Shown here: piece by piece, positions 2 to 30,846 of the stretch
How the letters are laid out: every line of letters begins with the position of its first letter
Numbering within the stretch: position 1 is the first letter of the stretch
From: a virus
IMG/VR virus record: IMGVR_UViG_3300008267_011356
Coordinates: 1-33,014 of that record
Length of the DNA: 33,014 nucleotides
Direction: 5' to 3' (one strand)
Made by a program: the position numbers and the translations under genes
Notes under the pieces: model-generated
What the model was told of the DNA's origin: nothing
The model's input: the letters and a program-made list of their open reading frames with translations, nothing else
The model's database searches: none

Positions 2-1396
2 ACCAATGGTTCTCAAATATTCAAAGTTGAAGGAGATACATATTTGACATTATTTATTAGAAACAAAAATTATTGTTCTACTTTAGAAAGAGGTCAAAAA
101 GACATGAATAACTCGGGTGGTTGTGGTAATAAAAATGAAGAAGAAGAATATACCAAAACTGGCGCTTGGAGTTACGCTGTTGTGTTAGAAACTATGGTTG
201 AACCTAAATTGACATATAAAGATGTTTTTTGGAGAAAACAAAACTCATGGGATTTTGATGGTGTTGGAGAACAAATCAATGAATGTTATTTACAAGAAAC
301 TTCTTTGAAATCTAGTATATCAAGACCATTTAGATTTAAAGATGATCCAAACCAAAACAATGTTATTGCAGCATCTAATCCTAAACTAAATGGAAATTAC
401 TATGATGATTGGTCCGTTTTTGAACCAAATAATTTTTATGAAATTGATAAGGATAAAGGAACTGTTTTTAATCTTGGTAAATTCTTAGATGAGGTTTACG
501 CTATTCAAGAACAACAAACATCAAAATTATTAATTGATGAAAGAACAATGATACCAAGTAATAATGGCGAGTTATCAATTAAAGAAGGTAGTGGAAATGT
601 TATTGCAAGCCATCAAGTAGTTTCTGATTTTGGAACCTCTATTAGACGCGCATTAGCAGAAATTATTAGTTCAGGTCAAATAAAAGGATTTTCATTTTTT
701 GATGAAAAAAGAAATGAATTCGTTAGAATAGATAAGCCATTATTAATAGACAATCAACTTCATTTATCAATTATAGAAAAGTTTATTGATAATCCGGTTA
801 TTGATACCGAAGGTTATTTTGATGATGAATTCAAAGAATCTAATATCAGATTAAGAACTAAAAATGGAACAAATATTATTCTTTCTTTTAATGAAGTTTT
901 CCAATGTTTTAACGGTTGGGTTGAATATGATAATGATTTATATATTATGTGGAATAGTGAAGTGTATGCACCAAAAACTACCGAAGTAGATTTTGAAGAT
1001 ACTACTAGACCAGATAGTTCTAAATTATTTCAATTAAATAAGGGAGATTATTTGAACTTCTTTGAAGAACAAAAAACAATAAAGCTTGGTGTTATAGTAA
1101 ACCAAGAAAGCGGTAAGATTAAGATATTCAAACATTGGGGAGGAAATATTAATATTCCTTACAATGTAAAAAGCATTACATCAAAAACCTCAACTAATCA
1201 AGTTAGAGTAGTTCAAGGAACGCACCATAGATATAAAATCAGAGAAGAATATCATTCTGTTCCTTTAAAAAATAGAACTGACTGGGAAGATTTGCGAGGA
1301 AAATGGATGTATTTAGAAGTTGAAATTGAAAGTATTAATAATCAAAAAATTGATATCTTTAGTTTTATTAACTTTGTAAGAGAAAGTTACATTTAA
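2..1396 (+). CDS. C-terminal part of a phage structural protein (tail-tip/muzzle-like, by position)
   Basis: The frame is open from the first bases of the window, so the gene begins upstream and only about 464 residues of its C-terminal part are seen. An internal TTG at 44 could be taken for a start, but in-frame codons continue before it (...VEGDTYL), so this is a truncated gene and not a new start. The protein is rich in Asn, Asp, aromatic residues and beta-strand-like stretches, with no signal peptide or membrane segment in the visible part. It lies 12 bases upstream of the glycine-zipper and transglycosylase genes in the same direction. In crAss-like phages the gene before the ejected cargo proteins usually encodes a tail-tip (muzzle) or other tail protein. 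The structural role is inferred from position; the family was not recognised from residues. Confidence 0.5.
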   Translation, partial: TNGSQIFKVEGDTYLTLFIRNKNYCSTLERGQKDMNNSGGCGNKNEEEEYTKTGAWSYAVVLETMVEPKLTYKDVFWRKQNSWDFDGVGEQINECYLQETSLKSSISRPFRFKDDPNQNNVIAASNPKLNGNYYDDWSVFEPNNFYEIDKDKGTVFNLGKFLDEVYAIQEQQTSKLLIDERTMIPSNNGELSIKEGSGNVIASHQVVSDFGTSIRRALAEIISSGQIKGFSFFDEKRNEFVRIDKPLLIDNQLHLSIIEKFIDNPVIDTEGYFDDEFKESNIRLRTKNGTNIILSFNEVFQCFNGWVEYDNDLYIMWNSEVYAPKTTEVDFEDTTRPDSSKLFQLNKGDYLNFFEEQKTIKLGVIVNQESGKIKIFKHWGGNINIPYNVKSITSKTSTNQVRVVQGTHHRYKIREEYHSVPLKNRTDWEDLRGKWMYLEVEIESINNQKIDIFSFINFVRESYI

Positions 1397-1408
1397 AATT
1401 AGACAGTT

Positions 1409-2200
1409 ATGTACGGATTTGGAGACGATGAATTTAAAAAAAGACAAGACGAACTTCAACAAATGAAGTTCGGATTAGATGATTTGCAAAAGTCATTTAG
1501 TGAAATGCCAGGAATGAAAATGGGTAACTATGATGTTACAGGTAGAGAGAATAAAAATCCTGATACTACATTGGGAAAATTTGATTTATCTAGTTTTGCA
1601 AATAAAGATAATGTAGGTTCTATATATGAATCATTTCAACCACAAAATACAGATTTTAAATCTGAATCAAAAGGTGTAGAATCTTTAGTTAGTGGATTTA
1701 AATCGGGTGGTTCTGAATCTATTAGTGGAGAAGCTGGAGCTGAATCTTTAGGTGGATTAGATTCTTTACTTGGTGGTTTAAAATCAGGAGGGGCAGAAGG
1801 AAGTACAGATGCATTAGCATCGGCATCAGGAGGAATGGATATTGCAAGTTCTTCTGTAGCTGCAGGAATGAAAGCTTTAACAATGGCTAAAACTACTTCA
1901 AATAATGATGGTGAATCAGTTATGAATGGTATAGATATGACCATGAAAGGAACTAAAGCAGGAATGGCTATTGGCGGTCCTTGGGGTGCAGCTATTGGTG
2001 GAGCTGTTGGTTTAGGATATGGAATTTATGATGGATTTGCTGATGCAAACCAAAGAGGTCGCAATGAAAGAAATGAAGCTAAAGAAAAATTTAAAGAAAA
2101 CAAACTTCGTAGAGAGCAAGAGTTTAGAATTTCGGAAGGAGAAGATGCTTTGAAAAATCTTTCTAAATTGCGTAAAGCACAAATGGATTATTTAATTTAA
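1409..2200 (+). CDS. Gly/Ser-rich virion protein with a glycine zipper (candidate ejected channel protein)
   Basis: This 263-residue protein has a low-complexity Gly/Ser/Ala middle (about residues 85-155) in which a short unit recurs (SLVSGFKSGG near 92 and SLLGGLKSGG near 118). A glycine-zipper hydrophobic stretch follows at about 181-209 (GxxAGMAIGG...GAAIGGAVGLGYG), then a highly charged Arg/Lys/Glu C-terminal helix (about 215-263). Glycine zippers of this kind pack transmembrane helices and occur in small proteins that phages eject with their DNA. There is no signal peptide. The gene lies 12 bases after the structural gene and 12 bases before the transglycosylase gene, with an A-rich leader and no Shine-Dalgarno sequence. 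The role as an ejected membrane or channel protein is inference from the motif and from its neighbours. Confidence 0.6.
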   Translation: MYGFGDDEFKKRQDELQQMKFGLDDLQKSFSEMPGMKMGNYDVTGRENKNPDTTLGKFDLSSFANKDNVGSIYESFQPQNTDFKSESKGVESLVSGFKSGGSESISGEAGAESLGGLDSLLGGLKSGGAEGSTDALASASGGMDIASSSVAAGMKALTMAKTTSNNDGESVMNGIDMTMKGTKAGMAIGGPWGAAIGGAVGLGYGIYDGFADANQRGRNERNEAKEKFKENKLRREQEFRISEGEDALKNLSKLRKAQMDYLI

Positions 2201-2212
2201 AAATATATAGTT

Positions 2213-5032
2213 ATGCCTAAGACAAAAGATCCAAGATATGAGCAATTTGTAAAAGAATTTAAAGCAGGATTAGTTGGAGCCGAATCAGGTGGAGATTATT
2301 CCGCTATTAATCAAGCTGCTGTAAAAAAATATGGAGCAAACAGTAATATGGTTGCTCGTGGTAAATATCAAATGGTTCCTAAATACCATTGGGAAGATAT
2401 TAAAAACATCGCAAGAAAAAATAAAAGACCTGTTCCAGCTAATTATGATGATTACCTAAAAGATACTGTTTTACAAGAATTACATTTTGATTGGTACACT
2501 GAAAATAAAGTTTGGCCGACTGTAAATAGAGATTCTACAAAAGCTGTAAATGCTGGTTTATCTTTAGGTGCTTATGGTTATTATAATCATTTTGATCCAT
2601 CAGCTGCTAAAAAATTCATAACTACTGGAGAACATAGAAAAGCTACTGATTTAAATCCAAGTGGTAAAAAAGTTATTTCAAATTTTGAAAACTCTAGAAA
2701 TAAATCTGGAGTACAACCTTATTACGGATATAGTGAAGCTGATTACGAAAGAGAGTATAATAATTACACTTCTCAAATAAAAAATATCGATTCTAATGAA
2801 AATTATTCAGAAGAAATAAAAGGGCAGTTAAAAGGAGAGCTTTATAATAAATATCGTAATCAAGGATATATTCAGCCAAATGGTCCAAATGGAACTCCGA
2901 ATGGATTCAATATGATTATTGATAAAAGAAATAAAGCAAAACAAAAAGAATTTGAGGAAGCAAAAAAAAGTTTATCTGATGATTTAGATATTTTAAATAA
3001 ATCAGAAGTTCTTTATGTTACAAAAAACGGTAAAGTAAAAATTCAAAGTTTAAATAATTCTCCAATGACTGTTGATGATAAAAAACAGTTAGAAAAAATA
3101 ATTGAAAAAAATCCTGGATTATTTAAAAGAGGAATGAATGCTCGTAATGACATTGATTTAAAGTATGTAAAAAATGTTGAAAAAAAATACGAAACTTTAA
3201 CTGGAAAAAAATTAAATCTTTTAAATCCTGATAATACAAAAGGTAAAGATTTGGATTTAGATGTAAGTAAGTTTTCTGTTTTGGGTAAAAAATTTGGAGA
3301 TATGCTTGGGGAATCATCTTCATATTCTGGAACTCCAATGTTATCTAAAGATTTTGAAGTTGGTGAAGTAAAAAAACAAAGCTTTATAGATTATATTCCT
3401 TCAACAGAAGAAGAAGAAACTCCTGCAGAAGTTACTCCAGAAGAAAAAGCGCCAGTAGTTGATGCTACTAATGCTACTGCTAAAGAAATTGAAAAAGCTA
3501 AACGTATGAGTATGGAAAAGAAAGAAGTTCCTACTACGTTAGCAAGCGATGATTTTTTTAGAAATAAAGAAGAAGTTCCTCAAGGTGTAGATAGTCAAGA
3601 TTTTAAAGATAACTTTCCTTGGGCTGAGGTGTTGGGAAATGCGGCTGGAGCTTTTGCAGGACTATCAATGGCCGATAAAAGAATTCCAATGCGTGATGAA
3701 CAAGTTTCTGATGCGTTTAGAAATTATGCTGCTGAAATTAAAAAGTTATCTGAAATAGGTTTACGACCTGAAGAAGAAGCTTATGCAAAAAGAATGATTA
3801 CTGAAAGTTATAGTGGTTCTATCGATCAACTTGTAAAAGCTTCGGGTGGTGCTCGTAATTTAGTTTTAGGAAATCTTGGTCGTATTGATGCTCAAAAAGG
3901 AAAATCATTAATGGAATTGGCCGTTGCTGATGCTTCTGCTAAAACAGATGCTTTACATAAGTATGGTGAAGCAATGCAATACATTAATGAATTTGATGCT
4001 CGTAGGGATATTGCTAATAACGAAAGAAAGTACAAAGAAGTATTAATGACTAAAGAAGCGGGTGCTCAATTAGCTCAAGTAGGTTTTTCAGGAATGATGG
4101 ATTCATTAAATGAATATCGAGATAACAAACCGGGTTCTGTAAACCATGCTTATAAGTCTATGATGTACAGAAAAATTCATGGTTATGATCCTCAATTAAA
4201 AGATGATGGAACTGGTAATACTAAGTATACTTTTTCTTGGATGAAAAAGCAAAACGAAAATATTTCCAAAGCAGCATTAGAGCATAATGAAATTGCAGAT
4301 ATGTATTGGAAAATGGATGATAATGAAAGAAAGCAAATGAATGATTTCATGATTAAGAACAATTTTCAAGGATATAAAGAATTTGCAAAAAAAATATATA
4401 ATAATAGAGTTTCAAGTGAAAATGGAGATGGCATTGTTTTAACACCTGAACAATTAGCAGATGATAGTAGTGGATATGACAATCCAAATTATATTGGTCC
4501 TGATGGTAACAAGGCTAAAAAAAGTGTTTATAATTCGGTTTTAAATGGTGTTGAAAATGGTGTTTCTGCTAAAGAAAATGGAATTATAACATCTGACAAA
4601 GGTTATTTAAACAACACTAATTTGGACCAAGATATGCTTGCTAAATATCCACCTGAGAAAGCTTATCAAAATGTTTTAGAACAACATAAAAAAGGTGCAT
4701 TAAATGGAGAATTACCAACACAAGAAGAATTTACTAAAGACTATATTAAGCAATTTGAATTTGCTGTTGATGGAAAACAGAATCCTAATATTGTAATAGG
4801 TAAAGGTATTCCTGGAACAACCATAACCGAACAGGATATTAAAAATGAACAAAATAAATATCCTACTATTTTATTTTCAAATGAAAATGAAACTCCAGAA
4901 CAAAAAATGCAAAGGTTAAATCAAGAAGCAGAACAGTATCTAAAAAAAGATAAATCTTCAAATACTTTAGATTTATTGATTAATGATACATTAAAACAAA
5001 CAGAAGAATTAATTAAAACAACTCAAAAATAA
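2213..5032 (+). CDS. Virion-associated lytic transglycosylase/lysozyme-like protein
   Basis: The protein has 939 residues. The N-terminal ~150 residues look like a lysozyme-fold transglycosylase: ESGGDYSAIN at 24-33 gives the likely catalytic Glu24, GKYQM at 50-54 matches the conserved G-x-Y/M-Q strand, and an AYGYYNHF helix lies near 125. This domain cuts the glycan strands of peptidoglycan. The rest shows no recognised domain: a Lys/Asn-rich section, an acidic Glu/Pro/Thr-rich linker at about 400-440, and a long helical, charged region. Position between the glycine-zipper protein and two other large proteins suggests an internal virion protein that opens the wall during DNA entry, not the late lysis endolysin. 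The domain call is good; the packaging inference rests on synteny with crAss-like phages. Confidence 0.75.
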   Translation: MPKTKDPRYEQFVKEFKAGLVGAESGGDYSAINQAAVKKYGANSNMVARGKYQMVPKYHWEDIKNIARKNKRPVPANYDDYLKDTVLQELHFDWYTENKVWPTVNRDSTKAVNAGLSLGAYGYYNHFDPSAAKKFITTGEHRKATDLNPSGKKVISNFENSRNKSGVQPYYGYSEADYEREYNNYTSQIKNIDSNENYSEEIKGQLKGELYNKYRNQGYIQPNGPNGTPNGFNMIIDKRNKAKQKEFEEAKKSLSDDLDILNKSEVLYVTKNGKVKIQSLNNSPMTVDDKKQLEKIIEKNPGLFKRGMNARNDIDLKYVKNVEKKYETLTGKKLNLLNPDNTKGKDLDLDVSKFSVLGKKFGDMLGESSSYSGTPMLSKDFEVGEVKKQSFIDYIPSTEEEETPAEVTPEEKAPVVDATNATAKEIEKAKRMSMEKKEVPTTLASDDFFRNKEEVPQGVDSQDFKDNFPWAEVLGNAAGAFAGLSMADKRIPMRDEQVSDAFRNYAAEIKKLSEIGLRPEEEAYAKRMITESYSGSIDQLVKASGGARNLVLGNLGRIDAQKGKSLMELAVADASAKTDALHKYGEAMQYINEFDARRDIANNERKYKEVLMTKEAGAQLAQVGFSGMMDSLNEYRDNKPGSVNHAYKSMMYRKIHGYDPQLKDDGTGNTKYTFSWMKKQNENISKAALEHNEIADMYWKMDDNERKQMNDFMIKNNFQGYKEFAKKIYNNRVSSENGDGIVLTPEQLADDSSGYDNPNYIGPDGNKAKKSVYNSVLNGVENGVSAKENGIITSDKGYLNNTNLDQDMLAKYPPEKAYQNVLEQHKKGALNGELPTQEEFTKDYIKQFEFAVDGKQNPNIVIGKGIPGTTITEQDIKNEQNKYPTILFSNENETPEQKMQRLNQEAEQYLKKDKSSNTLDLLINDTLKQTEELIKTTQK

Positions 5033-5037
5033 TAATT

Positions 5038-7134
5038 ATGGATTATGGTGTAGCAGTTGGTTTGCAAGGACTATATGGTAAGAGTAACTATATAGAAAGA
5101 AATAGAACGGAAATGGCAACATTATCCGCTATGGGTGCTGAAAAAGAAAAAAGTGATGCCATGAAAGAGCAAGCTCAATTAAAAGAGCAAGCTTACATGG
5201 AAGAAATCAGTAAATTTTCAGATACGCTTCTTGGTCCTGATAGAGATAAAATCAACGAAAAAGCTAAATTTCTTCAAGCTAGAATGAAAGAAAAAATATC
5301 TTACTATGGTGGAGATATGCAAAAGTTTTTTTCAGAGGGTGGTCATAAGTTTTTAGGAGATTACAAACGTTCTTTAATGACTTCTCCAGAAACTACTCAG
5401 TATATGGAAAACAAGAAAAACATGACAATGCTTTTAGAAATGATGGGTAAAAAGCAAGGTCATTTAATTAATGCTCGCGATTATCAATCATTAGTTGATT
5501 ATCAAAATAATGGCGGTGGAGCAATTAGTTTTACTGGTATGTATAATGAAATTGAACTTCCTGATTTAGATGCTTACGATTATGGTTCTGAAATTCCAGC
5601 TCAAGATATTTTAGATAAAAACTTCATGGCTATTTATGGAAATTACATTATTGATAATCCTGACAAAGCTGATTTAGATCCTCAAGATTTAAAACATGAT
5701 TTAGTAGCTTACACGCAATTAAATTATGGTGGAAAAGGTAAGAACTGGCAAAGACAACAACAAGCTATTGAAGAGAAGAATCGTCATGAAGAATCAATGG
5801 CTAAGTTGATGAATGAAAAAATGAAAATTTCAATGGGTGCCAAAACTAAAAAAATGATTGATGTCAACGGAAACGAAGTTGAAGTTTACGATGATACTCA
5901 ACCAGAAGATAAAGGTTATAGCAACTTACTTTCTAATGAAGTATTAAGAGGTATTCATAGTATTTCTCCAGCTGAAAAAAGATTCACAATAGATGAATTT
6001 ATGGATGGTTATAATGTAAAAGATAACGCTACTTTTAACGAAATGTTTGAACCTATTAATGCTGGTTCTTTAGTTGCGGAACATGTTGATATGGCAGAAG
6101 AAGGAATAGATTGGTTTGGTAGAGAAGATGCTTCTAAAGTTGGTATATTACCAAATTTTGCAAATGATTATTTTGTTCCTGCAAATGCTTATAATGTAAA
6201 AGGTTTTCAACCGCATAAAGATAAAATTGCAGAAATGTTTTTTAGTGGACTAAAAGTTGTAAATGGTAAAGTTATTGGCTTAACTCCAACTAATGATATG
6301 TATTTACCTGATGGCGCTTCATTAGATGCTCACGCTAAACAAGAAACTCCTTTAGATATTAATGCTTATACTGGAGATTATACAATTAAAAATATTTTTG
6401 TTGGAGGTGTTACCGAAACTAAAGATGGTAAAGAAATTGTAATGAATAGAACTAATTCTAAAGGTGAATTAGATGAAGATTGGAAAAAAGAAGCTAGTGC
6501 AAAATATACTGGTGACATCAAAGGAAACCAATTGATTGTTCAAGTTGAAGATGATAAAGGTCAAGTATTCTACAAAGCAATGGAATATACATCTGTTCTT
6601 TCTCAAGAAATTAATAAAAAACTTGGAGCAAGTAATCAGTTAGCGCCTGTTGATAAAGATTATTCTCAAAAATCAAACACTCAACAAGCTCAAGTTAAAT
6701 TAGCTAAAGAAGAGAAAGAACAATATGCACAATCTTGGAATATTGTAAATGAACAAGCGGGTAATGTGTTTAAGCAAAAAACATCAGAAGCTATCATGTT
6801 GTCACCGCAAGGAACTTACGACCAACAATCAGCTAATTTTGTTAAATCATATTATGTTGCTTTAGCAGGTATGGTTGATGGACAAATCAAAAACGCTAAT
6901 ACATTAAAGCAAATGGTTGAAACGCCAGGTGCAAGTGTAATGAATGTTGTTAAAGAAGCTAAAGATGAAGGATATGATGTTAAAGGTAGAATTGCTCAAG
7001 GTGCAAGTGCTTTAGAAGTGATTGATGATTTAATTAAATTAGAAGTCAATAAAACAGATTCTAATCCGGGCAATGTACAAGTTCTTGAACTTTGGAGAAA
7101 AAACATGATGTTCCTCAATGACTTAGGAAAATAG
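5038..7134 (+). CDS. Large helical virion protein of unknown function (candidate ejected cargo)
   Basis: This 698-residue protein was not recognised. The first ~90 residues are strongly helical and charged (many Glu, Lys, Met, Gln). The middle is Asp/Tyr-rich and more mixed, with a possible strand-rich section at about 440-520. The C-terminal part is helical again (about 545-698). No membrane segment, signal peptide or catalytic motif is visible. It starts 5 bases after the transglycosylase stop, so the two are probably co-transcribed. It ends with TAG and is followed at once by an intrinsic terminator, which shows TAG is read as a stop here. Its place between the transglycosylase and the giant polymerase protein suggests a virion cargo protein; that is inference only. 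Confidence 0.6.
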   Translation: MDYGVAVGLQGLYGKSNYIERNRTEMATLSAMGAEKEKSDAMKEQAQLKEQAYMEEISKFSDTLLGPDRDKINEKAKFLQARMKEKISYYGGDMQKFFSEGGHKFLGDYKRSLMTSPETTQYMENKKNMTMLLEMMGKKQGHLINARDYQSLVDYQNNGGGAISFTGMYNEIELPDLDAYDYGSEIPAQDILDKNFMAIYGNYIIDNPDKADLDPQDLKHDLVAYTQLNYGGKGKNWQRQQQAIEEKNRHEESMAKLMNEKMKISMGAKTKKMIDVNGNEVEVYDDTQPEDKGYSNLLSNEVLRGIHSISPAEKRFTIDEFMDGYNVKDNATFNEMFEPINAGSLVAEHVDMAEEGIDWFGREDASKVGILPNFANDYFVPANAYNVKGFQPHKDKIAEMFFSGLKVVNGKVIGLTPTNDMYLPDGASLDAHAKQETPLDINAYTGDYTIKNIFVGGVTETKDGKEIVMNRTNSKGELDEDWKKEASAKYTGDIKGNQLIVQVEDDKGQVFYKAMEYTSVLSQEINKKLGASNQLAPVDKDYSQKSNTQQAQVKLAKEEKEQYAQSWNIVNEQAGNVFKQKTSEAIMLSPQGTYDQQSANFVKSYYVALAGMVDGQIKNANTLKQMVETPGASVMNVVKEAKDEGYDVKGRIAQGASALEVIDDLIKLEVNKTDSNPGNVQVLELWRKNMMFLNDLGK

Positions 7135-7145
7135 ATTGAAAAATG

Positions 7146-7172
7146 GCTACTCAAAAGAGTAGCTTTTTTTTT
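7146..7172 (+). terminator. Intrinsic terminator after the 698-residue virion gene
   Basis: A perfect 7-base-pair stem, GCTACTC / GAGTAGC, with an AAAA loop is followed directly by nine T residues. It starts 12 bases after the TAG stop of the gene before it. It would end the transcript of the structural/cargo genes and so separate it from the giant polymerase gene. Confidence 0.9.
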
Positions 7173-7204: not shown

Positions 7205-10200
7205 ATGCCTGATTTTATGAGTAAAATAGCTGCTATGCAAGAGCGTACAGCTGAAATTAAAAAACAAGAAGAAACCACTAAAGTTAAAAGTGGAAATGAA
7301 CAGACAATTCAAAGTCAGTTTGATTCTATGTTTAGTGGTGGTGGAAATGGCGCTAAGCCAAAACAAGAAGAAGAACCAACATTAAATTTTAATCCTGATT
7401 CATTAGGAGATATTGTAGGTGGTGTTTCTGTTGAAAATACTGCTAGACGCAGACAAGTAGCAAATCAATCTTATGGTGGAGATGAAAGTTTAGTTCAAAC
7501 AGATCCTAACAAAGTTGGTGGTTGGGGAGCTACTGCTTACTATCAAGATTTCTTATCTAAATCTGCAGATAATATTATGGTTGGTATTGGGAATTCTATT
7601 TTCAAATCAACTGGAGATATGATTGATGCAATTGGAGCAATGGCTTCTGATGAATATTCGGGAAATCCATTTTCAGAAGCAATGCGTGAAATTGGTACTG
7701 ATATGGCAGAAAAATATAAAACGTATGTTTCTCCAGAAATTTTAGATCCTGAATTTAAAATATCAACATTTATGAATCCCGAATTTTGGTCGGTTCATGG
7801 TGCTCAATTTATTCCACAATTATTAGAAATTCTTTTAACTAAGAATATTGCTAAAGCTGGTGCCAAAAAAGTATCTCGTATGGGAGCTAAATCTGCATTA
7901 GAAATTGGAGAAGAAGGAATGGAAAAACTTGCTAAATCAGGAGCAAGAACTACTACTACAAAATCTATTGGTGGAGCTGTAAGTGAAGTTGAAAGCAATT
8001 CTTTAAAATGGTCAGGTAAATTATTTAGAGATACTGGGGAACTTACAACATTTGGTAAAGGAGTTGTTGAAACAGGTATTGGAGGTTTAACTACCAACTT
8101 ATCTGTTGGTTTAAAAAATGCTGGGGAACTTTGGAATACTGTTAATGAAATGACAAATGAAGATGGTTCTCCAATGTTTACTAAAGAAGAAATGGGCCAA
8201 ATGACAGCTGGTGCGTTCACTAATAATTTAAAGTATTTAGGTATAGATACTTTGTCTTGGGGAATGACTTTTGGAGGTGGTTGGAATAAACTTTCTAAAG
8301 CAGCTAAAACTTTATCTCCAGCGAGTCAATTAAAAATGACTTCGGGAATGTTTACTCATTCTGTTTCTCCAATTTTTTCTAAGTTAGGTAAGTTAGCTGG
8401 AAAAGCAATTCCTGAAGGTATGGAAGAAACTGTTCAAGAAACTTGGGAAGAATGGTCAAAAATGAAAGCATACAAAGATGTTACAGGAACATTAAAAGGT
8501 TATCCTGGTATATCTAAAGATTATGATACGGAAGGTTTTCTTGGAAACTTTTGGGATTATTATAGTTCAAAAGATTCAGAAGCTATTCGTGCAATTTCAT
8601 TTGGTTTAGGTGCAGCTGCAGGTGGAGGATTTAATTTTAAATCAATCATCAATGAATCGGCTGAACAAAATTATGCTTACTATTCAAAAGCAGAAAACTT
8701 AAAACAACGTTTTGAGAAAGGAACAACTGGTAAAGCATATCAAGATACTCACATTAGAAATCAAATGGCAGAAATTGTTTTTGAAGATAAAGATTATGCT
8801 TTTGGAAGTTTTATGGGAGAACTTGAAAATAGAGGTGTTATTTCCAAAGATGAAATTGTTCACTACAATAATTTGTATTCTGAAATGAAAGCTCAAAAAG
8901 ATAATATTGAGTTTTTGAATATTTCGGGTAAAAGAGCTTTTATGAATAATATCACTAAAGAAATGGATATTGTAAATAAAATTAATATTGCTCAACAAAA
9001 ACACGAAAAAAATACTTCTGTATTAAAAGAAACTTTCAAAGGTGATGAAGATGGCTTCAATAAAGCCATGAAGAAAGAACTTAAATCTTACAATGAAGAA
9101 GTTTCCATCTTTGGTAATATCTTATCACAAATCCAACAAAACAAGCGTAATATTTTAAAAGGTGAACCCGCTGTTCAAGTTGAATATGAAACTAAATTTG
9201 ATGAAAACGGAAATGAAATTGTTAGTCAAGTTGAATCAACTAAATCTGAAAAGGTTCAAGAGGAACAAAACGCTGATGTTCCGGTTGAAGTAATGAAAGA
9301 ATCGATGTTTAATAGATTGAGTAAGCTTGGAAAAGAAGCTCTTAAATCTGTTGGTATTGATTTAGATGTATTGAATGGAAATGAATCAGAAAATCAAAAT
9401 GATGCAAGTTCTGATGCTACCTCTGATGTAAATGATGATACCTCTACTGATTTTACACAAGATCCAGAATACATGGATTTGGAACAAGAGCGTATTATGT
9501 ATGAATCGCAAAATGATGAAAGTTATTTAGAAAATGAAAATAAAGCATTAGAAAAAGAATTGGCTACAATAAAAGATGATAACGATCCTCGTATTGCAGA
9601 AATTGATGCTTTAATGTCGTCTAATGAAGAACAAATTCAATTAAGAAAAGAAGCTGAAAATTTAGATAAAGAAATAGCTTCATATAAATCTCCTGAAACT
9701 ATTGTTGCGAGAAGTGCGGCTCAAGACAAACTTCAATCTGTTAAAAATAAAATCAAACCTGTAAATAAAAAATCTTGGTCAGAAACTGAATCAGGAAAAC
9801 GCCAGGAAGAAATAAAAAATAAATCTCAAGCTGATGTAAAAAATGATAAAATCATTGAAGATGAAAAAACCACATTATTAGATGATGAGGTTTATAAATC
9901 ATTTGTTGATAATGGTACCATTCCATCAGGTGTAATTAATTCTTTAGTAGATAAAATTTCAAGCGGACAACAACTTACTGCAGAAGAAGAATCTGTTAGA
10001 CAAGCTTTTTCAAAAGAGATTGAAAATTTATTAAAACAAAAAGCCGAAGTTACCGAAGATTATGATAAAGAAATTGAAGATGATTACGACATGTCTGACG
10101 ACGAACAAGCGGCTATTGCCGATTACGAGAAAAAAGCAGTTCGTAGAAAAAAAACCAAAAAATCAATATCTGAAGATGCTGAACAAAAAAGCAAAGAAGT

Positions 10201-13200
10201 CTTAAAAAAAGCACCACCTAAAAAAGATGGTCCTTCAAATATTTTTGGTTCTGGTCGTGCTAAGGTTATAAGTAATCCTACTCAAGTAGCAGCAATAGCT
10301 GTTGAAAAAACTAAAACAGTTTTTGGTGGAATTATAAATAAATTCAAAACTGCTTATGAAAATGATAAAGCTGATTTGGGTATTGGTAAAAAATACAAAT
10401 TAAAAGAATCTATGGGGCCAATGATTAATCCTAACAATATGGATGAATGGCTTAAAGACTCTTTAACTATTGGACAAGAATTTGCTGTTAATATCATAAA
10501 TCATGGTTTGAAAAATAAAAAATTAGTTGAGCAAATTAGAAAAGAATATGCTCATCAAGTTTTCTATAAATTCAGAAATGGTAAAAAAGCAATGTATATG
10601 AATATGCTTGAAGAAGCATTAAAACAAGGTGTTACTGTTGAACAATTTGATTTAAGTTTTCAAAAATCTTTGGCTTCTGGAGCAATAAAAGAATTGCCTA
10701 TGTCAGAGCAAGATATTCTTAAAGAAGAAATTTTTGCTTATGGATTAGAAGGTCCTTTAAGTAGAAAATTTGGAAATTTACTTGAACCATCTTTAGAAAA
10801 TACAAGACAGTTTTTTGCTAAAAAATGGTGGAATAAAATCAAAGAAAAAGTAACTGGTGCTAATTCTGAATATACTGAAAATGAGAAATTATTTTTAGCA
10901 AATTTATCTGATAGTCAGTTAAAAGATTTTGATAAAGCTAAAGAGAAAATATTTGAAAACTTTCAAAAAGAATTAAAAGGCCGAGGTGTAAACATGTCGG
11001 CTGTTGGTAAGTTAAAAGCTATTGAAAATTTTGAAGCTGAAATCAAACAACAACAAGAAGAAATTCAATTTAAACTTGAAAAACAATTAGAGAAATTTGA
11101 TTACAAAAAGAAAACTTTAAGTGAGGAACTACAAGATGAAATTGATTTGGAAAAATTGATGGAAAATCAAGAAGAAGAAGATACTCAAAAATTCTTTGAC
11201 CATGATCGTTTGAAATATGGACAAAAAGCTTCTGAAATGATTCGTAAGTTTTTCCGTAGTCACAATAGAGTTATCCGTAGAAAATTTATGGATAAGAATC
11301 AAAAAGCCGGAAGTAAAATCAATTGGTTTAATATTCCATTTTCTGATAAAGATAAATTTGAAAGAATACTTATTTCTGCTGCTAAAGATTCTCCAAGTAA
11401 TTTAGAGTTTATTCGTAGAATTGAAAATAGTGATATTGCTGAAATAGATGAATTCAACAAATTTTTAGATACTGTTCGACCAAATGATAAGTATTTGATT
11501 TTATCATCTATGAAATTCATTTACGGGAATCAATCTAAAGTCAATTCTTTGATTGGTAATATGGATTCTAATGGTAACTATCAGGTACAGAATAATCTTT
11601 CAGCACGCGAAGATTCTATGGTTGAATCAGCTATATCTCAAATGATGTTAAATGGTGGTGCATATTTTGGAAGTACAAAAGGTTTTCCTGCAGATCCAAA
11701 ACGTGTAGCTGCTTATACTGATTTTATGTCTTTAATTGACAGAATAAAAAGTGATAATTATACTAATCAAGATTTAAGAAGTTTCTTAAAAGCATTTTCA
11801 TCTAAATCAGTTGAGATAGATGAAATTTTAGAACAAAATTCAATTAATGTAAATGGAAATAATTATACAGTTGACCAAGTTGTACGAGAGATTGTTAAGA
11901 AAGGTTTTGATGCAAAAACAAGTCAGGGTAACAATGCTTATTCTATTAATGATTCAAAAGGAAACTTCAAGAATATTTTTAGACAATTCGCAAAAGCAAT
12001 AGCTGTAACTAATCGTCGTTTTACAAACACCAATACAGTTCTTAATGCAATGGGCGACCAAGTTCCTGTTCGTGTAATTGATAACATGTTTATTCGAACT
12101 AATGAGCAAATGAATGATGATGCTCAAGTAATGAATAAATCAGAATTTATAAAAAAATATTCTGCTATTCATACTTCAGGGAAAGGTTCTATGAGTAATA
12201 GATTGTTAAATCATTTTTGGGATAAGGTTCAAGAAGGAAATAAGATTGAAGTAAATCTTTATCATGGAACTAAAAACGAAATGACTAAAAATAATAGTGT
12301 AGTTTCTGATAGTAACTCAACTGAGCAATCTATTATGGAAACTCTTTCTTATTTCTCTGATAATCGTACAAATGAATATTTGATGGAAGCAGGTCGTTTT
12401 GCTGATTCTCCAGTGTCATATATGATTCGAGTTCCTAGAACTAAATTAGATGAATTAGGTAGATTAAAAAATGATGTTTTTGTATTTAGACAAGATATGG
12501 CACCAACATTAGAAAATGCTTTGGCAACATATAATGGAATTACAAAATCAAAATTATCTATGGCTGAATTTAAAGTTAAATTGAACGAAGAAATTCAGAA
12601 AGAAATAGAGTTTGTTATTAATAATAGAGAAGCTTTTGAGAAAACAAAAGTTGGAAATGATATGTTTGATGCCAATGGAAAAATTACAGATAAAGGAAGA
12701 AATATGATTTCTGAATTTGTAATTAATCAATCATTAAATTCATTAGCTTTTAATGATATATTCATGCCATCTTATTCTGGAAAGGATATTGTTAAAAGAC
12801 AAAAATCATTGCATTCTCCAATATTTTCATTTGGAAAACATGTTCGAGTGGAACCGATTTATTATGTAGATAAATCTATTGAAGAAGGACAAAAATCTGT
12901 TTCTGATTCATCTATGTATGTTCTTAGAGAAGATGCTGAACTTATTCGTAAAGCTGGTGGAGATATGATGCCACTTAATAATTCATATAAAATTTTAATG
13001 ACAGGTAGAGAGTATGAAAATAAAAACTTTGCCAAAGGAAATTTATATGATAAAGGTTACGCTACAATCATTGATGATGAATTTGTTGCTAAAAATCCTG
13101 AATTAAAAGGATTGTATGAGTTTATGAAAGCTCGTAGAAAAAGATTTAATAATAGAAATTCAGAAACAAATAATGCTCCTGCAATGCATTGGGGGCCAAA

Positions 13201-16200
13201 TACACCAGATTTATTAAATGGTGAATCAGCGCATATTATGTTTGCTGCTCCAATATCTTCTGTTAAGTCAGATAATATGCCTATTGAATTAGTTGAAAAA
13301 GGAAGTTATAATCCAACTGAAACAGGACAAATGTTTACTCTTGAGGGATTGAATAGTGGTGTTGATTCTAATTTTGAAGAACAATCTAAAATATATGACC
13401 AATGGCATTATGGTAAAGTAGAAGGAACCAATTGGGAAAAATTTGTTGGAATTAATGGTTCTAACTTTGGAGTTCAGCAAGTAATGGATATGAAGAAAAC
13501 TTCTACTAATACACCTATTCAAGCAATGAGAGCAATATTAACTAATGCTTCTTTATTTGATGGCGGTGTTCAAGTGGCCGAAGAAATTCAAAATTTGCTT
13601 ACTGAAAAAATGCAAGAAAATTTAAAGCCTTATAAAAAGATTTTAAAAAGTAGAGATCCACAAGCGATTAGAAAATTTATCATGGATAATATGTCTATGA
13701 TGGATGTTGATGCTCGTCAAAGATTTTTAATTGAAGATGATAAATCTTCTATGAGCTTACCTGATTTACAAAATTTAGCATTGAATACAATGATTAATAA
13801 AATTCGTAAAACAGGAAACAAACTTTCTACTCCAGGTACAATTGCACAAGCTAAATCAGATACTTATCAAAAACCATATTCAACTAACGGAAGTTCTTCT
13901 TTAGCTTTCTATACTGACAAAACAATTACCGATGAACAAGGAAATGTTAAGACAGTTTACAATCAAGGAGAAGCAGTGGTTCCAAACCACATGCAAGACA
14001 AAATAAAAGCAAGAAAGTATTATACTTTGAATGATTTAGACGTTCAGCGTGTTGCTCAAAAATACAATAACCTTTCAGAAGAAGATTTCTTGAAAGTCAT
14101 TGAAAGTTTAGCTAAAAAAGAAGCTATGCATCGCGGAACAAGTGTTGGAGAAGTTAGAGATAGTGGTGGAGATATTATTGGTTATTATGCTTCTGGTGAT
14201 ACAATTATTGCTACTCGTATTCCATCGCATGGACCTCAAACAACAGGTGTATTTGAAGTTATCGATTTTGACACAACGGGAGGTTCTAATATTCAATTAC
14301 CATCTGAATTTGCTTTAGATATTACTGGAGGGGATTTTGATGGTGACCAATTCTTTGTTCAGCATAAAGGAAGAGGTAATGAAAATCAAAAATGGAATAA
14401 AGCTTTTGATAAACTTACTAATTTATGGTTGGGAGAAACCATGAGAAATGAAGTTAGATTGGCTATTGATTTTAAAGAAGAAGCTGAAAAAGCGGTTAAA
14501 GCTATTCATGGAAATGATTTTGGTAAAGAACCAACATTCCATTTTTCACCGCAAGGCCGTAGAGAGTCGTACAATAATACTTTAGTTTCTAAAAATAATA
14601 TTGGTGTTGCTGCTAACTTGCATTCATTGTTAGGTATGCTTGCTGGATATGAAACAAAATTAGTTTCTCCAATTAGAATTAATGGATATCAAGATGTTTC
14701 TACAATTAAAGATATGCCGAATGAAAGTAGAACTATTAATTCAGCAAAAATATTCAACTTAATATTAGACAATGCTAAAAACCAATATGCTGATGCTTTA
14801 GGTATTAATGAGCATACGGTATCTCATGCTATTATTTTAAGAAACATGGGAATTAGTTTAGAAGATATTGGAAGAATTTTAAATTCTGATGTTGTAAAAG
14901 AAATGAATAAACTGCTTTCTAACAACGAAAATATATTCAAGGATAATAAGAGTGTGAATGATATAGAACGTATCATACGAGCTAAAATTCCAAGCAAATC
15001 GAAAGGGTATAATGGAGTTGTTAATATTGAAAAAATTAATAGTGCTGATTCGCAACATGCTGTTTTGGATTTAATGGCACAATTAGGTTCTATCAATGAA
15101 GATATAATGGCTGTTTCCGCAATTATGTCAGGGCACAATAAAATTGAAACCAATCCATTTATATTAGATGAACAATATAAACGCTTTAGAGATAAAGTAA
15201 TGAATGTTGATAATAAAGGAATTGAGTATAATAAAGAATTTTTACAAAATCCATTATTACAGAACTACGTTTCTACATTTGAATTTGCACGCGAAGTAAT
15301 GCGTGAATTAGATCCGGTTTATAGTTCATCTGGAGTAAATGTTTTCAAAAGATTAACTCAAGGAATTGGTAGAAATTTATCGAATAAAGATATTCATAAA
15401 ATTCATAGTCAAATTCAAATGTTAATGACAGCTCGTTCTATGGGATTGAATAATATTCCTGAAAGTAGAATGAATGAATTGGTTCGTAAATCAGAAAAAG
15501 ACAATCCAAATCCAAACAATATTTTTGAAAGATTAGAAGATTATAAAAATATGTTAGGAAGTATTGCGGTTGAATTCAAAAGCGATAACGTTCAAAAAAC
15601 AGTTAGTGCATTGCAACATAATTTATTGTTTTCTAAAGGTCTTATGATTAACTCAAAAGGTAATAATAGATACATTGCTCTTAATAGTTCTTATTTCAAT
15701 GAAAATATGACATCAGAAGAAAGAGATAGAATGGTTCAAGAGTTTACAGATTTACCTACTGAATTGAAAAATGACTTAATGATTTACGACATGTTTACCA
15801 ATGGATTTAAAGGTCCTCGTTCATTGTATTCTATTTTCAGTGATGGATTTAAAATGGAATTATCATTGGCTTCTGATAATTTAATCAGTCAAAAACAATT
15901 GGGTAATTATCAATTAAGTCCAAAACAAGAATCTAAATTAGCTCAAAGAATTGTTCAAACTAATTCTCAAATGTTTGTTCATGTAAATAATACTGAAAAC
16001 ATTTTAGATGCCAATGGAAACTTTACTGAAGCTTTCTTGAAAAAAAATGGAAACATTTTCAAAAGAATGGCAAAGGGTGAAGAAGTTATTTTTAGATACA
16101 AAGAATTTTCAAAAAATAGATATACTGAAAAGATATTCCATTTTGGTGGTATTACAGAGAAACAAGCTGAAATGATGGGTGGGTTTAAAGAAGATATTAT

Positions 16201-18841
16201 TAAATCTTACTTGAAAAGCAAATTGAATAATAATAAAGAAGGTATTAAATTCTACGGTACCTATAATGCAAATGTTTATTCAAATGGAATTGGAGTTATT
16301 TCAATACCTGATGAAAGTACTGGCTCGCCTAGATTAATTGATGATGGTACAGGTGGATTTAATATTGAAGAAATTTTTGATAAAGCAGCTGATGGAGATA
16401 CTTCAGGTCGAGCTAAAGTAGCTTTTGCAAAAGATTATTATAATTACACAAAACAGTTATCTAAAGATGAATTGATAAGCGCTTTAGGTGTTAATCCAAA
16501 TAATTTAACTGAAACAAAAATTGATAATATTTATAAAAAATATTTGAAAGAAGAAAAAAAGGCTGATGCTATTTCCAAAACCGTAAATTCTGAAACCGTA
16601 AAAGCAATGAGTGATGAAAAACTTATTGAACTTTATTCAGGCAAAAAATTAAGTGATGGTGAACCAGGTTATGGTCATAGGGATAAAGTTGCTTATGCTA
16701 AAGTCATAAGACCTATTATTTTGGAAATAGCAAAAAGGGCCGGAGTAGAACAAGCTCAATTAGCAAAAACTAATTCTGATAAAGAAATTGGTTACGCTAA
16801 TGAAGATTTAGGTTTTTTTCAAAGTTATTTGATGGCTAATAATATACCTTCAAATCAACCAGAAATTCAAGCTTTGGTTAGAAAAATGGAAACTGAATTT
16901 AAGAAGTTCCAAAAAGAAAAAGCAAAATTAACAATAGATATTCAGTCGGCTACTGAAGAACTATACAAGGAAAAATATGGTTTTAATCCTGGCGTTAATA
17001 AAGTTTTTTCTAAAGATTTTTGGAAGAATATTTTCAATCAAATTTATACTAACAAAGAAGATATGTATAAAAACCTATATGGTTCTTTGATTGAGTTTCA
17101 GAAAGTAACTGGAGATAATGGACAAGTAATTAATAACATGAAGTATAAAACTGCTGAACAAATTGAAGCAGATTTTAAAGCAGGAATTGTATCTCCAGCG
17201 CAATATAAATTCTATAAGGCTACTACTGAAATGACTAAAAAAATGAAGCCATTTGTTTTAGGAACAGAAGAAGGTGGTCGAGTAGATTATATTCCACATT
17301 CGGCACCAACAATGTTAGAAATTAAATCAAGACGTGGTTTGTTAGGAATGGCTGTAAATTCAAGAAACATCAACGAAAGAATTGGTGATGTATTAATGAC
17401 TTTTACAAATCCTATTAATAATAAAGTTGAAGAAAATGTTTCGTTTTCACACATACAAAATGTTTACAATACATTATCTGCAACAAATAAAAAAGAGGGA
17501 TTGGCAAGAACTAAAGAATTTTTGTCGCTTAAAAGAAAAGCTATTATCCTTGCTAGAGAAATGAAAAACCAAGATGGTTCAGCATTAAGAATAAGTGAAG
17601 TTGAAGCTGGTTCTGCAATCGGTGATGTCTTTTTAGATAGATTTTCTAACAGCAGAAGTATTGCTGCAACCGATTTACCAACTTTAGATTTGAATAAAGC
17701 ATTTATGGATTATGCACATTCTACTTTATTTAATCATGGTAATGAAAACTTTAAAGGAATGAATAAAATGATTCCTTTGGTAGATGGTGTTATTGCATTA
17801 TCTGATTCAAGAAAAGATATTAATGCAAAAAAATACGTTGAGAAAGTTTGGAAAGATTATTTCTTATCAGGAAAGAAACAAGATAGTTTTAAAAATTCTG
17901 CAACGTTAGAAACCATAGGTGTAACCAATGATAAAGTAATCAATTTATTGACTCAAACAAGTTTGGTATATTGGTTAGGTTATCAAGGTTTATTAGTTGG
18001 TGGTGGTGTTTATGCATTAGGAAATACTCTTGTTGGAAAATACATGAACATCAAAAACAATGGTGGTGTTGCCTGGGCTTTAGGAGAAAAAAGATTTTGG
18101 GGAGGTATCGGTGGTTTTAATCCTTTGAATCCGTTTAAAGGTGTTAAAGAAGCAAGTGCTATATTAAAAAACACTGGATTCATGGATGTAAATGTTTACG
18201 ATGATGTTTCTATTGCTGAGAAATCATCTATTGAAAAATCATTTATGAATATGGCTTTATTCCCGATGATTTATTCAGAGAAGTGGGTTCAAGGTGTTGA
18301 TTTCTTAGGTAGATTAAGCGAGGAAGAATGGAATGTTTTAAAAGATGGCGGTAGCCTTTCAGAAGATAGAATGGCTATGTTGGAAGATGAGGTTAAAACA
18401 AATCATGGAAAAGGATATCAACCAACTGACCAACGTATGATACAAATGTATTCTTGGGGTAAAAATCTTATTCAGTTTTCAAGATATATACCTACTCTGT
18501 TTTATGACCAATTTGCAAGTAAAGATGTAAATATCTATGGTAAAAAACATATCGGTTCTTATCGAGCTGTTGGAGAGGCTGTTCAAAAAATGGTTCGAGG
18601 AGAAGTTAAGCCTGCTGAATTTTTACAATACAGAAAAAATTTAGATGCTTATGACAGAAGTAGATTAGACCAGGGATTAATTGGTTTTGGTATGTTATCT
18701 TTAATGTGGGGATTAAACATGTCTGGAGATGAGCATGGTGATAACAAATATTTTGCTGATGCTAATCCATTATTGAACTTAGATAAGATGGAAGGAAAAC
18801 TAACATCGCCTACTTACGATATGATTGATAAAGTTTTTTAA
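7205..18841 (+). CDS. Giant virion-associated RNA polymerase protein (crAss-like, DFDGD loop)
   Basis: The protein has 3878 residues. Residues 2377-2381 read DFDGD, preceded by GG and followed by Q: the metal-binding loop of two-barrel (double-psi beta-barrel) RNA polymerases, with Asp2377, Asp2379 and Asp2381 as likely Mg2+ ligands. About 45 residues earlier TRIPSHGPQ resembles the R-x-P-x-x-H segment that precedes this loop in cellular beta' subunits. This is the single-chain polymerase carried in virions of crAss-like phages such as Cellulophaga phi14:2, which transcribes early genes after ejection. The first ~480 residues resemble internal virion proteins (hydrophobic and Gly-rich patches, EGMEETVQE near 400); about 640-1010 is charged and coiled-coil-like; a glycine-rich hydrophobic segment lies at about 3577-3613 and another at about 3825-3838. 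The chain is much longer than the roughly 2200 residues I recall for phi14:2, so other cargo domains are probably fused to it. The ATG at 7205 has an A-rich leader. Confidence 0.88.
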   Translation: MPDFMSKIAAMQERTAEIKKQEETTKVKSGNEQTIQSQFDSMFSGGGNGAKPKQEEEPTLNFNPDSLGDIVGGVSVENTARRRQVANQSYGGDESLVQTDPNKVGGWGATAYYQDFLSKSADNIMVGIGNSIFKSTGDMIDAIGAMASDEYSGNPFSEAMREIGTDMAEKYKTYVSPEILDPEFKISTFMNPEFWSVHGAQFIPQLLEILLTKNIAKAGAKKVSRMGAKSALEIGEEGMEKLAKSGARTTTTKSIGGAVSEVESNSLKWSGKLFRDTGELTTFGKGVVETGIGGLTTNLSVGLKNAGELWNTVNEMTNEDGSPMFTKEEMGQMTAGAFTNNLKYLGIDTLSWGMTFGGGWNKLSKAAKTLSPASQLKMTSGMFTHSVSPIFSKLGKLAGKAIPEGMEETVQETWEEWSKMKAYKDVTGTLKGYPGISKDYDTEGFLGNFWDYYSSKDSEAIRAISFGLGAAAGGGFNFKSIINESAEQNYAYYSKAENLKQRFEKGTTGKAYQDTHIRNQMAEIVFEDKDYAFGSFMGELENRGVISKDEIVHYNNLYSEMKAQKDNIEFLNISGKRAFMNNITKEMDIVNKINIAQQKHEKNTSVLKETFKGDEDGFNKAMKKELKSYNEEVSIFGNILSQIQQNKRNILKGEPAVQVEYETKFDENGNEIVSQVESTKSEKVQEEQNADVPVEVMKESMFNRLSKLGKEALKSVGIDLDVLNGNESENQNDASSDATSDVNDDTSTDFTQDPEYMDLEQERIMYESQNDESYLENENKALEKELATIKDDNDPRIAEIDALMSSNEEQIQLRKEAENLDKEIASYKSPETIVARSAAQDKLQSVKNKIKPVNKKSWSETESGKRQEEIKNKSQADVKNDKIIEDEKTTLLDDEVYKSFVDNGTIPSGVINSLVDKISSGQQLTAEEESVRQAFSKEIENLLKQKAEVTEDYDKEIEDDYDMSDDEQAAIADYEKKAVRRKKTKKSISEDAEQKSKEVLKKAPPKKDGPSNIFGSGRAKVISNPTQVAAIAVEKTKTVFGGIINKFKTAYENDKADLGIGKKYKLKESMGPMINPNNMDEWLKDSLTIGQEFAVNIINHGLKNKKLVEQIRKEYAHQVFYKFRNGKKAMYMNMLEEALKQGVTVEQFDLSFQKSLASGAIKELPMSEQDILKEEIFAYGLEGPLSRKFGNLLEPSLENTRQFFAKKWWNKIKEKVTGANSEYTENEKLFLANLSDSQLKDFDKAKEKIFENFQKELKGRGVNMSAVGKLKAIENFEAEIKQQQEEIQFKLEKQLEKFDYKKKTLSEELQDEIDLEKLMENQEEEDTQKFFDHDRLKYGQKASEMIRKFFRSHNRVIRRKFMDKNQKAGSKINWFNIPFSDKDKFERILISAAKDSPSNLEFIRRIENSDIAEIDEFNKFLDTVRPNDKYLILSSMKFIYGNQSKVNSLIGNMDSNGNYQVQNNLSAREDSMVESAISQMMLNGGAYFGSTKGFPADPKRVAAYTDFMSLIDRIKSDNYTNQDLRSFLKAFSSKSVEIDEILEQNSINVNGNNYTVDQVVREIVKKGFDAKTSQGNNAYSINDSKGNFKNIFRQFAKAIAVTNRRFTNTNTVLNAMGDQVPVRVIDNMFIRTNEQMNDDAQVMNKSEFIKKYSAIHTSGKGSMSNRLLNHFWDKVQEGNKIEVNLYHGTKNEMTKNNSVVSDSNSTEQSIMETLSYFSDNRTNEYLMEAGRFADSPVSYMIRVPRTKLDELGRLKNDVFVFRQDMAPTLENALATYNGITKSKLSMAEFKVKLNEEIQKEIEFVINNREAFEKTKVGNDMFDANGKITDKGRNMISEFVINQSLNSLAFNDIFMPSYSGKDIVKRQKSLHSPIFSFGKHVRVEPIYYVDKSIEEGQKSVSDSSMYVLREDAELIRKAGGDMMPLNNSYKILMTGREYENKNFAKGNLYDKGYATIIDDEFVAKNPELKGLYEFMKARRKRFNNRNSETNNAPAMHWGPNTPDLLNGESAHIMFAAPISSVKSDNMPIELVEKGSYNPTETGQMFTLEGLNSGVDSNFEEQSKIYDQWHYGKVEGTNWEKFVGINGSNFGVQQVMDMKKTSTNTPIQAMRAILTNASLFDGGVQVAEEIQNLLTEKMQENLKPYKKILKSRDPQAIRKFIMDNMSMMDVDARQRFLIEDDKSSMSLPDLQNLALNTMINKIRKTGNKLSTPGTIAQAKSDTYQKPYSTNGSSSLAFYTDKTITDEQGNVKTVYNQGEAVVPNHMQDKIKARKYYTLNDLDVQRVAQKYNNLSEEDFLKVIESLAKKEAMHRGTSVGEVRDSGGDIIGYYASGDTIIATRIPSHGPQTTGVFEVIDFDTTGGSNIQLPSEFALDITGGDFDGDQFFVQHKGRGNENQKWNKAFDKLTNLWLGETMRNEVRLAIDFKEEAEKAVKAIHGNDFGKEPTFHFSPQGRRESYNNTLVSKNNIGVAANLHSLLGMLAGYETKLVSPIRINGYQDVSTIKDMPNESRTINSAKIFNLILDNAKNQYADALGINEHTVSHAIILRNMGISLEDIGRILNSDVVKEMNKLLSNNENIFKDNKSVNDIERIIRAKIPSKSKGYNGVVNIEKINSADSQHAVLDLMAQLGSINEDIMAVSAIMSGHNKIETNPFILDEQYKRFRDKVMNVDNKGIEYNKEFLQNPLLQNYVSTFEFAREVMRELDPVYSSSGVNVFKRLTQGIGRNLSNKDIHKIHSQIQMLMTARSMGLNNIPESRMNELVRKSEKDNPNPNNIFERLEDYKNMLGSIAVEFKSDNVQKTVSALQHNLLFSKGLMINSKGNNRYIALNSSYFNENMTSEERDRMVQEFTDLPTELKNDLMIYDMFTNGFKGPRSLYSIFSDGFKMELSLASDNLISQKQLGNYQLSPKQESKLAQRIVQTNSQMFVHVNNTENILDANGNFTEAFLKKNGNIFKRMAKGEEVIFRYKEFSKNRYTEKIFHFGGITEKQAEMMGGFKEDIIKSYLKSKLNNNKEGIKFYGTYNANVYSNGIGVISIPDESTGSPRLIDDGTGGFNIEEIFDKAADGDTSGRAKVAFAKDYYNYTKQLSKDELISALGVNPNNLTETKIDNIYKKYLKEEKKADAISKTVNSETVKAMSDEKLIELYSGKKLSDGEPGYGHRDKVAYAKVIRPIILEIAKRAGVEQAQLAKTNSDKEIGYANEDLGFFQSYLMANNIPSNQPEIQALVRKMETEFKKFQKEKAKLTIDIQSATEELYKEKYGFNPGVNKVFSKDFWKNIFNQIYTNKEDMYKNLYGSLIEFQKVTGDNGQVINNMKYKTAEQIEADFKAGIVSPAQYKFYKATTEMTKKMKPFVLGTEEGGRVDYIPHSAPTMLEIKSRRGLLGMAVNSRNINERIGDVLMTFTNPINNKVEENVSFSHIQNVYNTLSATNKKEGLARTKEFLSLKRKAIILAREMKNQDGSALRISEVEAGSAIGDVFLDRFSNSRSIAATDLPTLDLNKAFMDYAHSTLFNHGNENFKGMNKMIPLVDGVIALSDSRKDINAKKYVEKVWKDYFLSGKKQDSFKNSATLETIGVTNDKVINLLTQTSLVYWLGYQGLLVGGGVYALGNTLVGKYMNIKNNGGVAWALGEKRFWGGIGGFNPLNPFKGVKEASAILKNTGFMDVNVYDDVSIAEKSSIEKSFMNMALFPMIYSEKWVQGVDFLGRLSEEEWNVLKDGGSLSEDRMAMLEDEVKTNHGKGYQPTDQRMIQMYSWGKNLIQFSRYIPTLFYDQFASKDVNIYGKKHIGSYRAVGEAVQKMVRGEVKPAEFLQYRKNLDAYDRSRLDQGLIGFGMLSLMWGLNMSGDEHGDNKYFADANPLLNLDKMEGKLTSPTYDMIDKVF

Positions 18842-18913: not shown

Positions 18914-18945
18914 AAAAAAAAGCCACTTTAATTAGTGGCTTTTTT
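18914..18945. terminator. Two-way intrinsic terminator between the convergent blocks
   Basis: AGCCACT / AGTGGCT form a 7-base-pair stem around a TTAATT loop, with a run of A before it and of T after it, so both strands read as stem plus T-run. It would stop rightward transcripts of the polymerase gene and leftward transcripts of the replication block. The TAA stop of the last leftward gene lies inside the loop. Confidence 0.92.
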
Positions 18946-30465: not shown

Positions 30466-30846
30466 TTAATCGCCTTTTAATTCCAACGATTTAATTGCCG
30501 ATTCAGGGCATTTCTCGTTATTCATAATTTGCTGTATTGCAGATTGAAAATTTCTTGCATAAACAGTAAGTTCAAATTTACCATCGTCATGCTTTAATAC
30601 AGCTTTATATCTATTCATTTTAGAATTGATTGAAAACACTTTTCTATATATTTCTGATATAGAATCAAATCCTAAATTGTTCCAAAAATCCCAAGATTTA
30701 GAATCTAATTTATTTTGGTCAAAAACTTTTTCTTCAGAATGATTTACTTGAAATCCATCTGATTCAATTTCCTGTTCTGCTTGTGATTGGCTATACGCTT
30801 CAATCGTTCCAAGTTCTATTCGAACTACTGTAAATACTCTTTTCAT
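30466..30846 (-). CDS. Unknown 126-residue protein
   Basis: No family was recognised. The first ~35 residues (FTVVRIELGTIEAYSQSQAEQEI) and the last ~45 (YKAVLKHDDGKFELTVYARNFQSAIQQIMN) both look like small beta-hairpin plus helix units of the type h-x-h-x-x-x-x-h-x-A-x-S-x-x-x-A found in many small phage proteins, so the gene may hold two related halves. There are no membrane segments or metal motifs. It starts 2 bases after the gene upstream. Confidence 0.6.
   Translation of the reverse strand: MKRVFTVVRIELGTIEAYSQSQAEQEIESDGFQVNHSEEKVFDQNKLDSKSWDFWNNLGFDSISEIYRKVFSINSKMNRYKAVLKHDDGKFELTVYARNFQSAIQQIMNNEKCPESAIKSLELKGD

Follow-up and report, generated by a model that had tools for sequence, protein, structure and literature searches.

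What is contained in a single 11.6-kb reading frame that carries the catalytic loop of an RNA polymerase, and what are the long stretches that flank this loop on either side? The window, by which we mean the whole 33,014-bp stretch of DNA that was analyzed, is an entire virus record, and coordinates within it refer to the plus strand unless marked otherwise. The giant single-chain RNA polymerase gene (7205–18841) encodes a protein of 3878 aa and 437.7 kDa. ORF analysis gives an ATG start, zero internal stops and 3878 codons, an open run with P of about 1e-160 at the local base composition, and GC content differs strongly between the three codon positions (0.43/0.32/0.16). Because the giant gene also reads through without interruption in six related contigs (L200, L247, L250, L251, L252 and L254), its length is not an assembly artefact. 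The single frame described in the original prediction is therefore confirmed, with TRIPSHGPQ at residue 2337 (R at 2338) and DFDGD at residues 2377–2381. The membrane-like segments proposed at residues 3577–3613 and 3825–3838 did not hold up: the 19-residue Kyte–Doolittle mean, for which the usual cut-off is 1.6, peaks at 1.22 (at residue 3587) and is not above 1.0 in 3825–3838. Searches of the giant chain against Pfam, PHROG and NCBIfam found nothing significant, and with the giant protein as query, no solved structure was matched by sequence.

The RNA polymerase module spans residues ∼1051–2900 (10355–15904), with outer limits drawn from conservation. The catalytic part of the second barrel (14216–14347) consists of R2338-x-P2340 followed by G2375-x-DFDGD (2377–2381), and in an alignment of 24 sequences R2338, P2340, G2375, the three loop aspartates (D2377, D2379 and D2381) and D2522 are invariant. 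This region aligns column by column with crAss001 gp50 and phi14:2 gp66, the offset from R-x-P to D-x-D-x-D being 39 residues in all three, and homology extends past the loop, where DNAK and the segment after it are conserved. The fold was modeled with AlphaFold2 for residues 1560–2740 (pLDDT 62.8, pTM 0.61), the comparison by which the original prediction had proposed to check its claim of a crAss-type two-barrel enzyme. The model, built from an alignment that contained crAss homologues, matches the double-psi barrel fold of phi14:2 gp66 (PDB 6VR4; VIA Z 18.9, 673 residues, rmsd 4.2 Å; Foldseek E 7e-15), with model residues 228–1175, or 1787–2734 of the protein, forming the matching part. The entries after 6VR4 are RDR2 (Z 9.8) and QDE-1 (Z 8.5), and gp64 and Thermus phage P23-45 gp96 give Z 6.7 and 4.0, respectively. 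A very strong sequence match to 6VR4 came from a profile that includes other crAss proteins; a profile of the window and two relatives alone, searched against PDB sequences, gave no match. Predicted fold, motif spacing and profile match all identify the core as a single-chain two-barrel RNA polymerase of the crAss type, and the claim is borne out.

A nucleotide search and tblastn with three pieces of the window, run against 50,697 phage records, gave no match, and an IMG/VR locus search with the single sequence produced no confirmed relative; IMG/VR relatives were recovered only via degenerate loop patterns combined with alignments. The bacterial and archaeal genome contigs searched held no relative and hence no clue to the host. 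The resulting group, whose members are 25–34% identical to the window in the alignment, comprises the giants of L200 (also G007; 3954 aa, contig of 82,432 bp), of L247, L250, L251, L252 and L254 (3775–3834 aa, most of these frames being cut at the 5′ end by the edge of the fetched locus) and a fragment, L253. A Pfam search of L200 found nothing. The metal loop varies within the group: the window and L200 have DFDGD and the other five of the seven have DNDGD, with the three aspartates kept and the phenylalanine replaced. More distant single-frame chains that carry the polymerase loop are G002 (6102 aa) and L210/G009 (4729 aa), both with C-termini related to gp76/gp49 or to the C-terminus of the window group. 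Besides the polymerase, the G002 chain (L075/L076) contains several HExxH motifs and, at residues ∼1345–1501, a helicase-type ATPase domain (AAA_30; Pfam 1.2e-7); the chain is followed by two more large ORFs, of 951 and 1169 aa.

To identify the flanks, we compared profiles of the window, L200 and L247, divided into four segments, with the families of three crAss transcription proteins. The N-terminal, polymerase and C-terminal segments each match their own family only, with cross matches of at most 1.7% and reversed decoys of at most 0.9%. With E-values that apply to single comparisons, hhalign pairs the N-terminal segment with the gp47/gp78 family (92.7%, E 4e-7; 71% with a broader family), the polymerase segment with gp50/gp66 (93.1%, E 3e-7, ∼400 columns) and residues 3513–3840 with gp49/gp76 (94.3%, E 1e-7, ∼330 residues). 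The N-terminal module (residues ∼110–480, 7532–8644) thus appears to align with crAss001 gp47 and phi14:2 gp78, a modest match that rests on a short stretch of sequence; hmmsearch scores it at 12.4 bits at residues 327–434. The C-terminal module (residues ∼3050–3878, 16352–18838), of which residues 3513–3840 align with crAss001 gp49 and phi14:2 gp76, has independent support from hmmsearch against the gp49 family, both with L200 alone (4.5e-6) and with G002 (2.4e-6), and in blastp phi14:2 gp76 matches the G002 chain (2e-11 and 3e-5). Conservation within the window group peaks at residues ∼3450–3800 (17552–18604), above the catalytic loop. The predicted fold of residues 2950–3878 has pLDDT 50 and pTM 0.29, and a viral structure search with it gave no match below 1e-3.

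The order of modules in the giant chain is the gene order of phi14:2, gp078-gp077-gp076. Since its N-terminal part relates to gp47/gp78 and its C-terminal part to gp49/gp76, the giant chain is very probably a fusion of all three proteins of the crAss transcription block in colinear order, with a gp47-like protein, the RNA polymerase and a gp49-like protein making up a crAss-type virion polymerase. The block has been compacted in the process, from ∼5400 to 3878 residues. The original prediction of extra proteins fused to the polymerase stands insofar as both flanks are added modules; their identity is different, however, being gp47/gp78-like in front and gp49/gp76-like behind rather than channel or ejection cargo. 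The excess is also smaller than the ∼2370 and 1500 residues that had been counted before and after the loop, as in phi14:2 gp66, too, 1360 residues precede the loop and ∼815 follow it. A search by blastp only for crAss001 gp45 and gp46 and the phi14:2 cargo proteins inside the giant found none below E 1, and the genes in the cargo position are separate ORFs upstream of the giant gene, which together with the muzzle gene span 2–7134.

Conservation troughs at residues ∼750–1050 and 2900–3050 mark the predicted module junctions. The first of these lies in a polar, poorly conserved stretch (residues ∼700–1050, 9302–10354) that is likely to separate the N-terminal and polymerase modules; between residues ∼750 and 1050, identity among three orthologues is 0–4% per 50 residues and 54–68% of residues are polar or disorder-prone. 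Such junctions raise the possibility of a polyprotein, a single translation product cleaved during assembly at both weak junctions to give three virion proteins as in crAss001. A zincin-like HELSH block occurs at the first junction in L200 (residue 1165) and L247 (residue 993), and the HExxH motifs of the G002 chain could be read in the same way. However, HELSH is absent at residue ∼1080 of the window and from four of the six relatives, and a zincin origin of this junction was rejected because the match to the zincin region of gp47 is not significant. Comparable chains also argue against cleavage: that of P23-45 gp96 is found full-sized in virions (PMC10770324), and N4 vRNAP is one ejected chain of 383 kDa (PMC12633501). 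We consider processing of this kind unlikely.

A polymerase that has merely acquired lineage-specific insertions, with flanks unrelated to gp47 and gp49, would fit the modest N-terminal match (71–93%) and the lack of any significant Pfam, PHROG or NCBIfam model on the chain. It does not account for the C-terminal match, which was obtained repeatedly with L200, G002 and phi14:2 gp76, or for the colinearity of three separate matches, and we judge it improbable.

The genes around the giant place it in a crAss-type virion context. At the left window end lies the C-terminal part of a crAss muzzle protein, cut by that end (2–1396; PF25731, E 1e-18, 67 bits against a cut-off of 27; the PF25729 match, at E 0.0018, is below its cut-off). 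It is followed by a 263-aa protein with a Gly/Ala-rich segment (1409–2200), which resembles the N-terminal region of crAss001 cargo protein gp45 (blastp 8.7e-6 for gp45 residues 116–186 as query, 0.084 in reverse) and matches phrog_934, ‘tape measure’, at 1.9e-5. Two separate cargo-position genes come next, encoding 939 aa (2213–5032; blastp 6e-44 to a 1210-aa G007 protein) and 698 aa (5038–7134; blastp ∼4e-25 to a 699-aa G007 protein in the same position). The 939-aa protein has only residues 446–710 in common with its G007 counterpart, its N-terminal part being different, as if exchanged; a lysozyme-like start suspected by eye found no support. A terminator-like hairpin with a long T tail, identified by consensus match only, separates the 698-aa gene from the giant (7145–7164). 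With it, the giant could be made in smaller amounts compared with the cargo proteins; in G007 only 22 nt separate the corresponding genes, and the hairpin is not conserved there. A second such hairpin, again a consensus match only, lies between the giant gene and convergent minus-strand genes (18916–18945). These belong to a replication-type block with MazG, an exonuclease, a Dda-like helicase and DnaB. On the minus strand at 30466–30846, a weak PHROG match to ‘RNA polymerase inhibitor’ (3.4e-4) marks a product that might act on host RNA polymerase.

The same arrangement is seen in G007, where the order is TerL, portal, capsid (PF23898), muzzle, cargo-position genes and giant, followed by a replication block ordered as in the window. 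The muzzle is found in six of the seven related records and the crAss capsid protein PF23898 in four, and the G007 portal and TerL match crAss001 in blastp (1e-15/1e-13); capsid, portal and terminase are seen in the relatives only, as the window stops short of these genes. By these markers, the phage is a relative of the gut crAss phages (order Crassvirales). In G010, the muzzle gene is split across the ends of an 82,833-bp contig, which is therefore probably circular or circularly permuted and complete.

Gene position and homologues together suggest that the giant chain is located in the virion. The alternative that it is a non-virion early polymerase, made after infection, draws on phages such as P23-45, which also carries a second, non-virion enzyme (PMC10770324). 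Here, however, the giant gene comes immediately after the muzzle and cargo-position genes and points the same way as these, opposite in strand to the replication genes. Moreover, crAss001 gp47, gp49 and gp50 are present in virions, from which ejection involves partial unfolding (PMC10172136), and the phi14:2 counterparts are annotated as structural proteins from MS/MS proteomics, making synthesis after infection very unlikely. Least credible is a tail-tape-fused polymerase of the P23-45 gp96 type, in which the extra length would be tape measure: gp96 is likewise a giant virion chain with a DFDGD loop, but the neighbors here are a crAss muzzle and crAss-type cargo-position genes in a short-tailed context, the core is far closer to 6VR4 than to gp96 or gp64, and the C-terminal module matches gp49/gp76.

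How might a fused virion polymerase of three modules work? By extrapolation from crAss001, phi14:2 and N4, the giant would be made late, alongside the virion proteins, and packaged into the head with its domains arranged like a string. It would then be threaded, partly unfolded, through the tail and channel after the smaller cargo proteins, refold in the host and transcribe the early genes. Fusion would fix the three modules at a copy number of 1:1:1 and deliver them jointly. As a more tentative proposal, which we put forward as a possibility rather than an expectation, a crAss-like lineage with ∼82-kb genomes may have compressed the block into an obligatory, N4-like chain of 3800–4000 residues in which the C-terminal module is a partner or regulator of the polymerase and not passive cargo.

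Three otherwise separate proteins joined in a set order amount to a natural experiment, from which proteins of the gp47, gp50 and gp49 types would be expected to cooperate and to be deliverable as one chain. The giant chain is also a compact structural target for two poorly understood crAss virion proteins, and its N4-like layout makes C-terminal regulation of the polymerase a directly testable question. Giant RNA polymerases of Crassvirales (up to ∼6000 aa) and two-module fusions are already known. The novelty lies in three modules sharing one compact chain within a small lineage whose genomes measure ∼82 kb, in a C-terminal module conserved above the catalytic loop and in the DNDGD loop of most relatives; in the literature covered, we found no earlier description of the three-module layout.

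Among known systems, phi14:2 gp66 (gp077 in GenBank) shares with the giant the two-barrel single-chain core and the spacing of R-x-P and D-x-D-x-D, and the phi14:2 block has the same module order and likewise follows the muzzle and cargo genes in the genome. Phi14:2, however, has three proteins, gp078, gp077 and gp076 (1797, 2180 and 1421 aa), whereas the window has one 3878-aa chain, and the loop of gp66 is DFDID instead of DFDGD. According to a review, the phi14:2 virion enzyme carries out early transcription (PMC10136315). In crAss001, the same three modules are gp47, gp50 and gp49, but these are encoded by three genes on two strands and sum to 694 kDa, compared with 438 kDa here. P23-45 gp96 is a virion two-barrel polymerase in a giant chain fused to the tail tape measure (PMC10770324); it resembles the giant in its two-barrel polymerase and DFDGD loop, but belongs to a long-tailed phage and its fold is much farther from the giant core than is 6VR4.

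The vRNAP of N4 and other schitoviruses (gp50) is similar in layout only, with ∼3500 residues in one chain, an N-terminal domain, the polymerase and a large C-terminal domain. The N4 polymerase is of the T7-like type, whereas the giant here is of the two-barrel type, and the genes around the giant are those of crAss phages, not of a schitovirus. A beads-on-a-string model has been published for the packing of N4 vRNAP and its ejection through the tail, and the C-terminal domain of N4 vRNAP represses the enzyme (PMC12633501). The RNA polymerases of crAss-like phages reach ∼6000 aa and have been called a hallmark of the group (PMC10136315); given these enzymes and N4 vRNAP, the chain size of the giant is not unusual. 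In Suoliviridae and Fpv1, the first two modules are fused (gp47-like and polymerase, 4400–5800 aa), and in Intestiviridae the last two (polymerase and gp49-like), as in KP06_gp44 of p-crAssphage (Carjivirus communis; 4070 aa), annotated as ‘RNAP catalytic subunit fused to unknown RNAP subunit’. Further IMG/VR loci carry the same two-module layouts as the annotated crAss genomes. The annotated giant crAss polymerases that we examined (4000–5800 aa) fuse two modules, whereas the window fuses three in a shorter chain. The three-in-one chain is a compact variant that extends a known trend, rather than a new kind of system.
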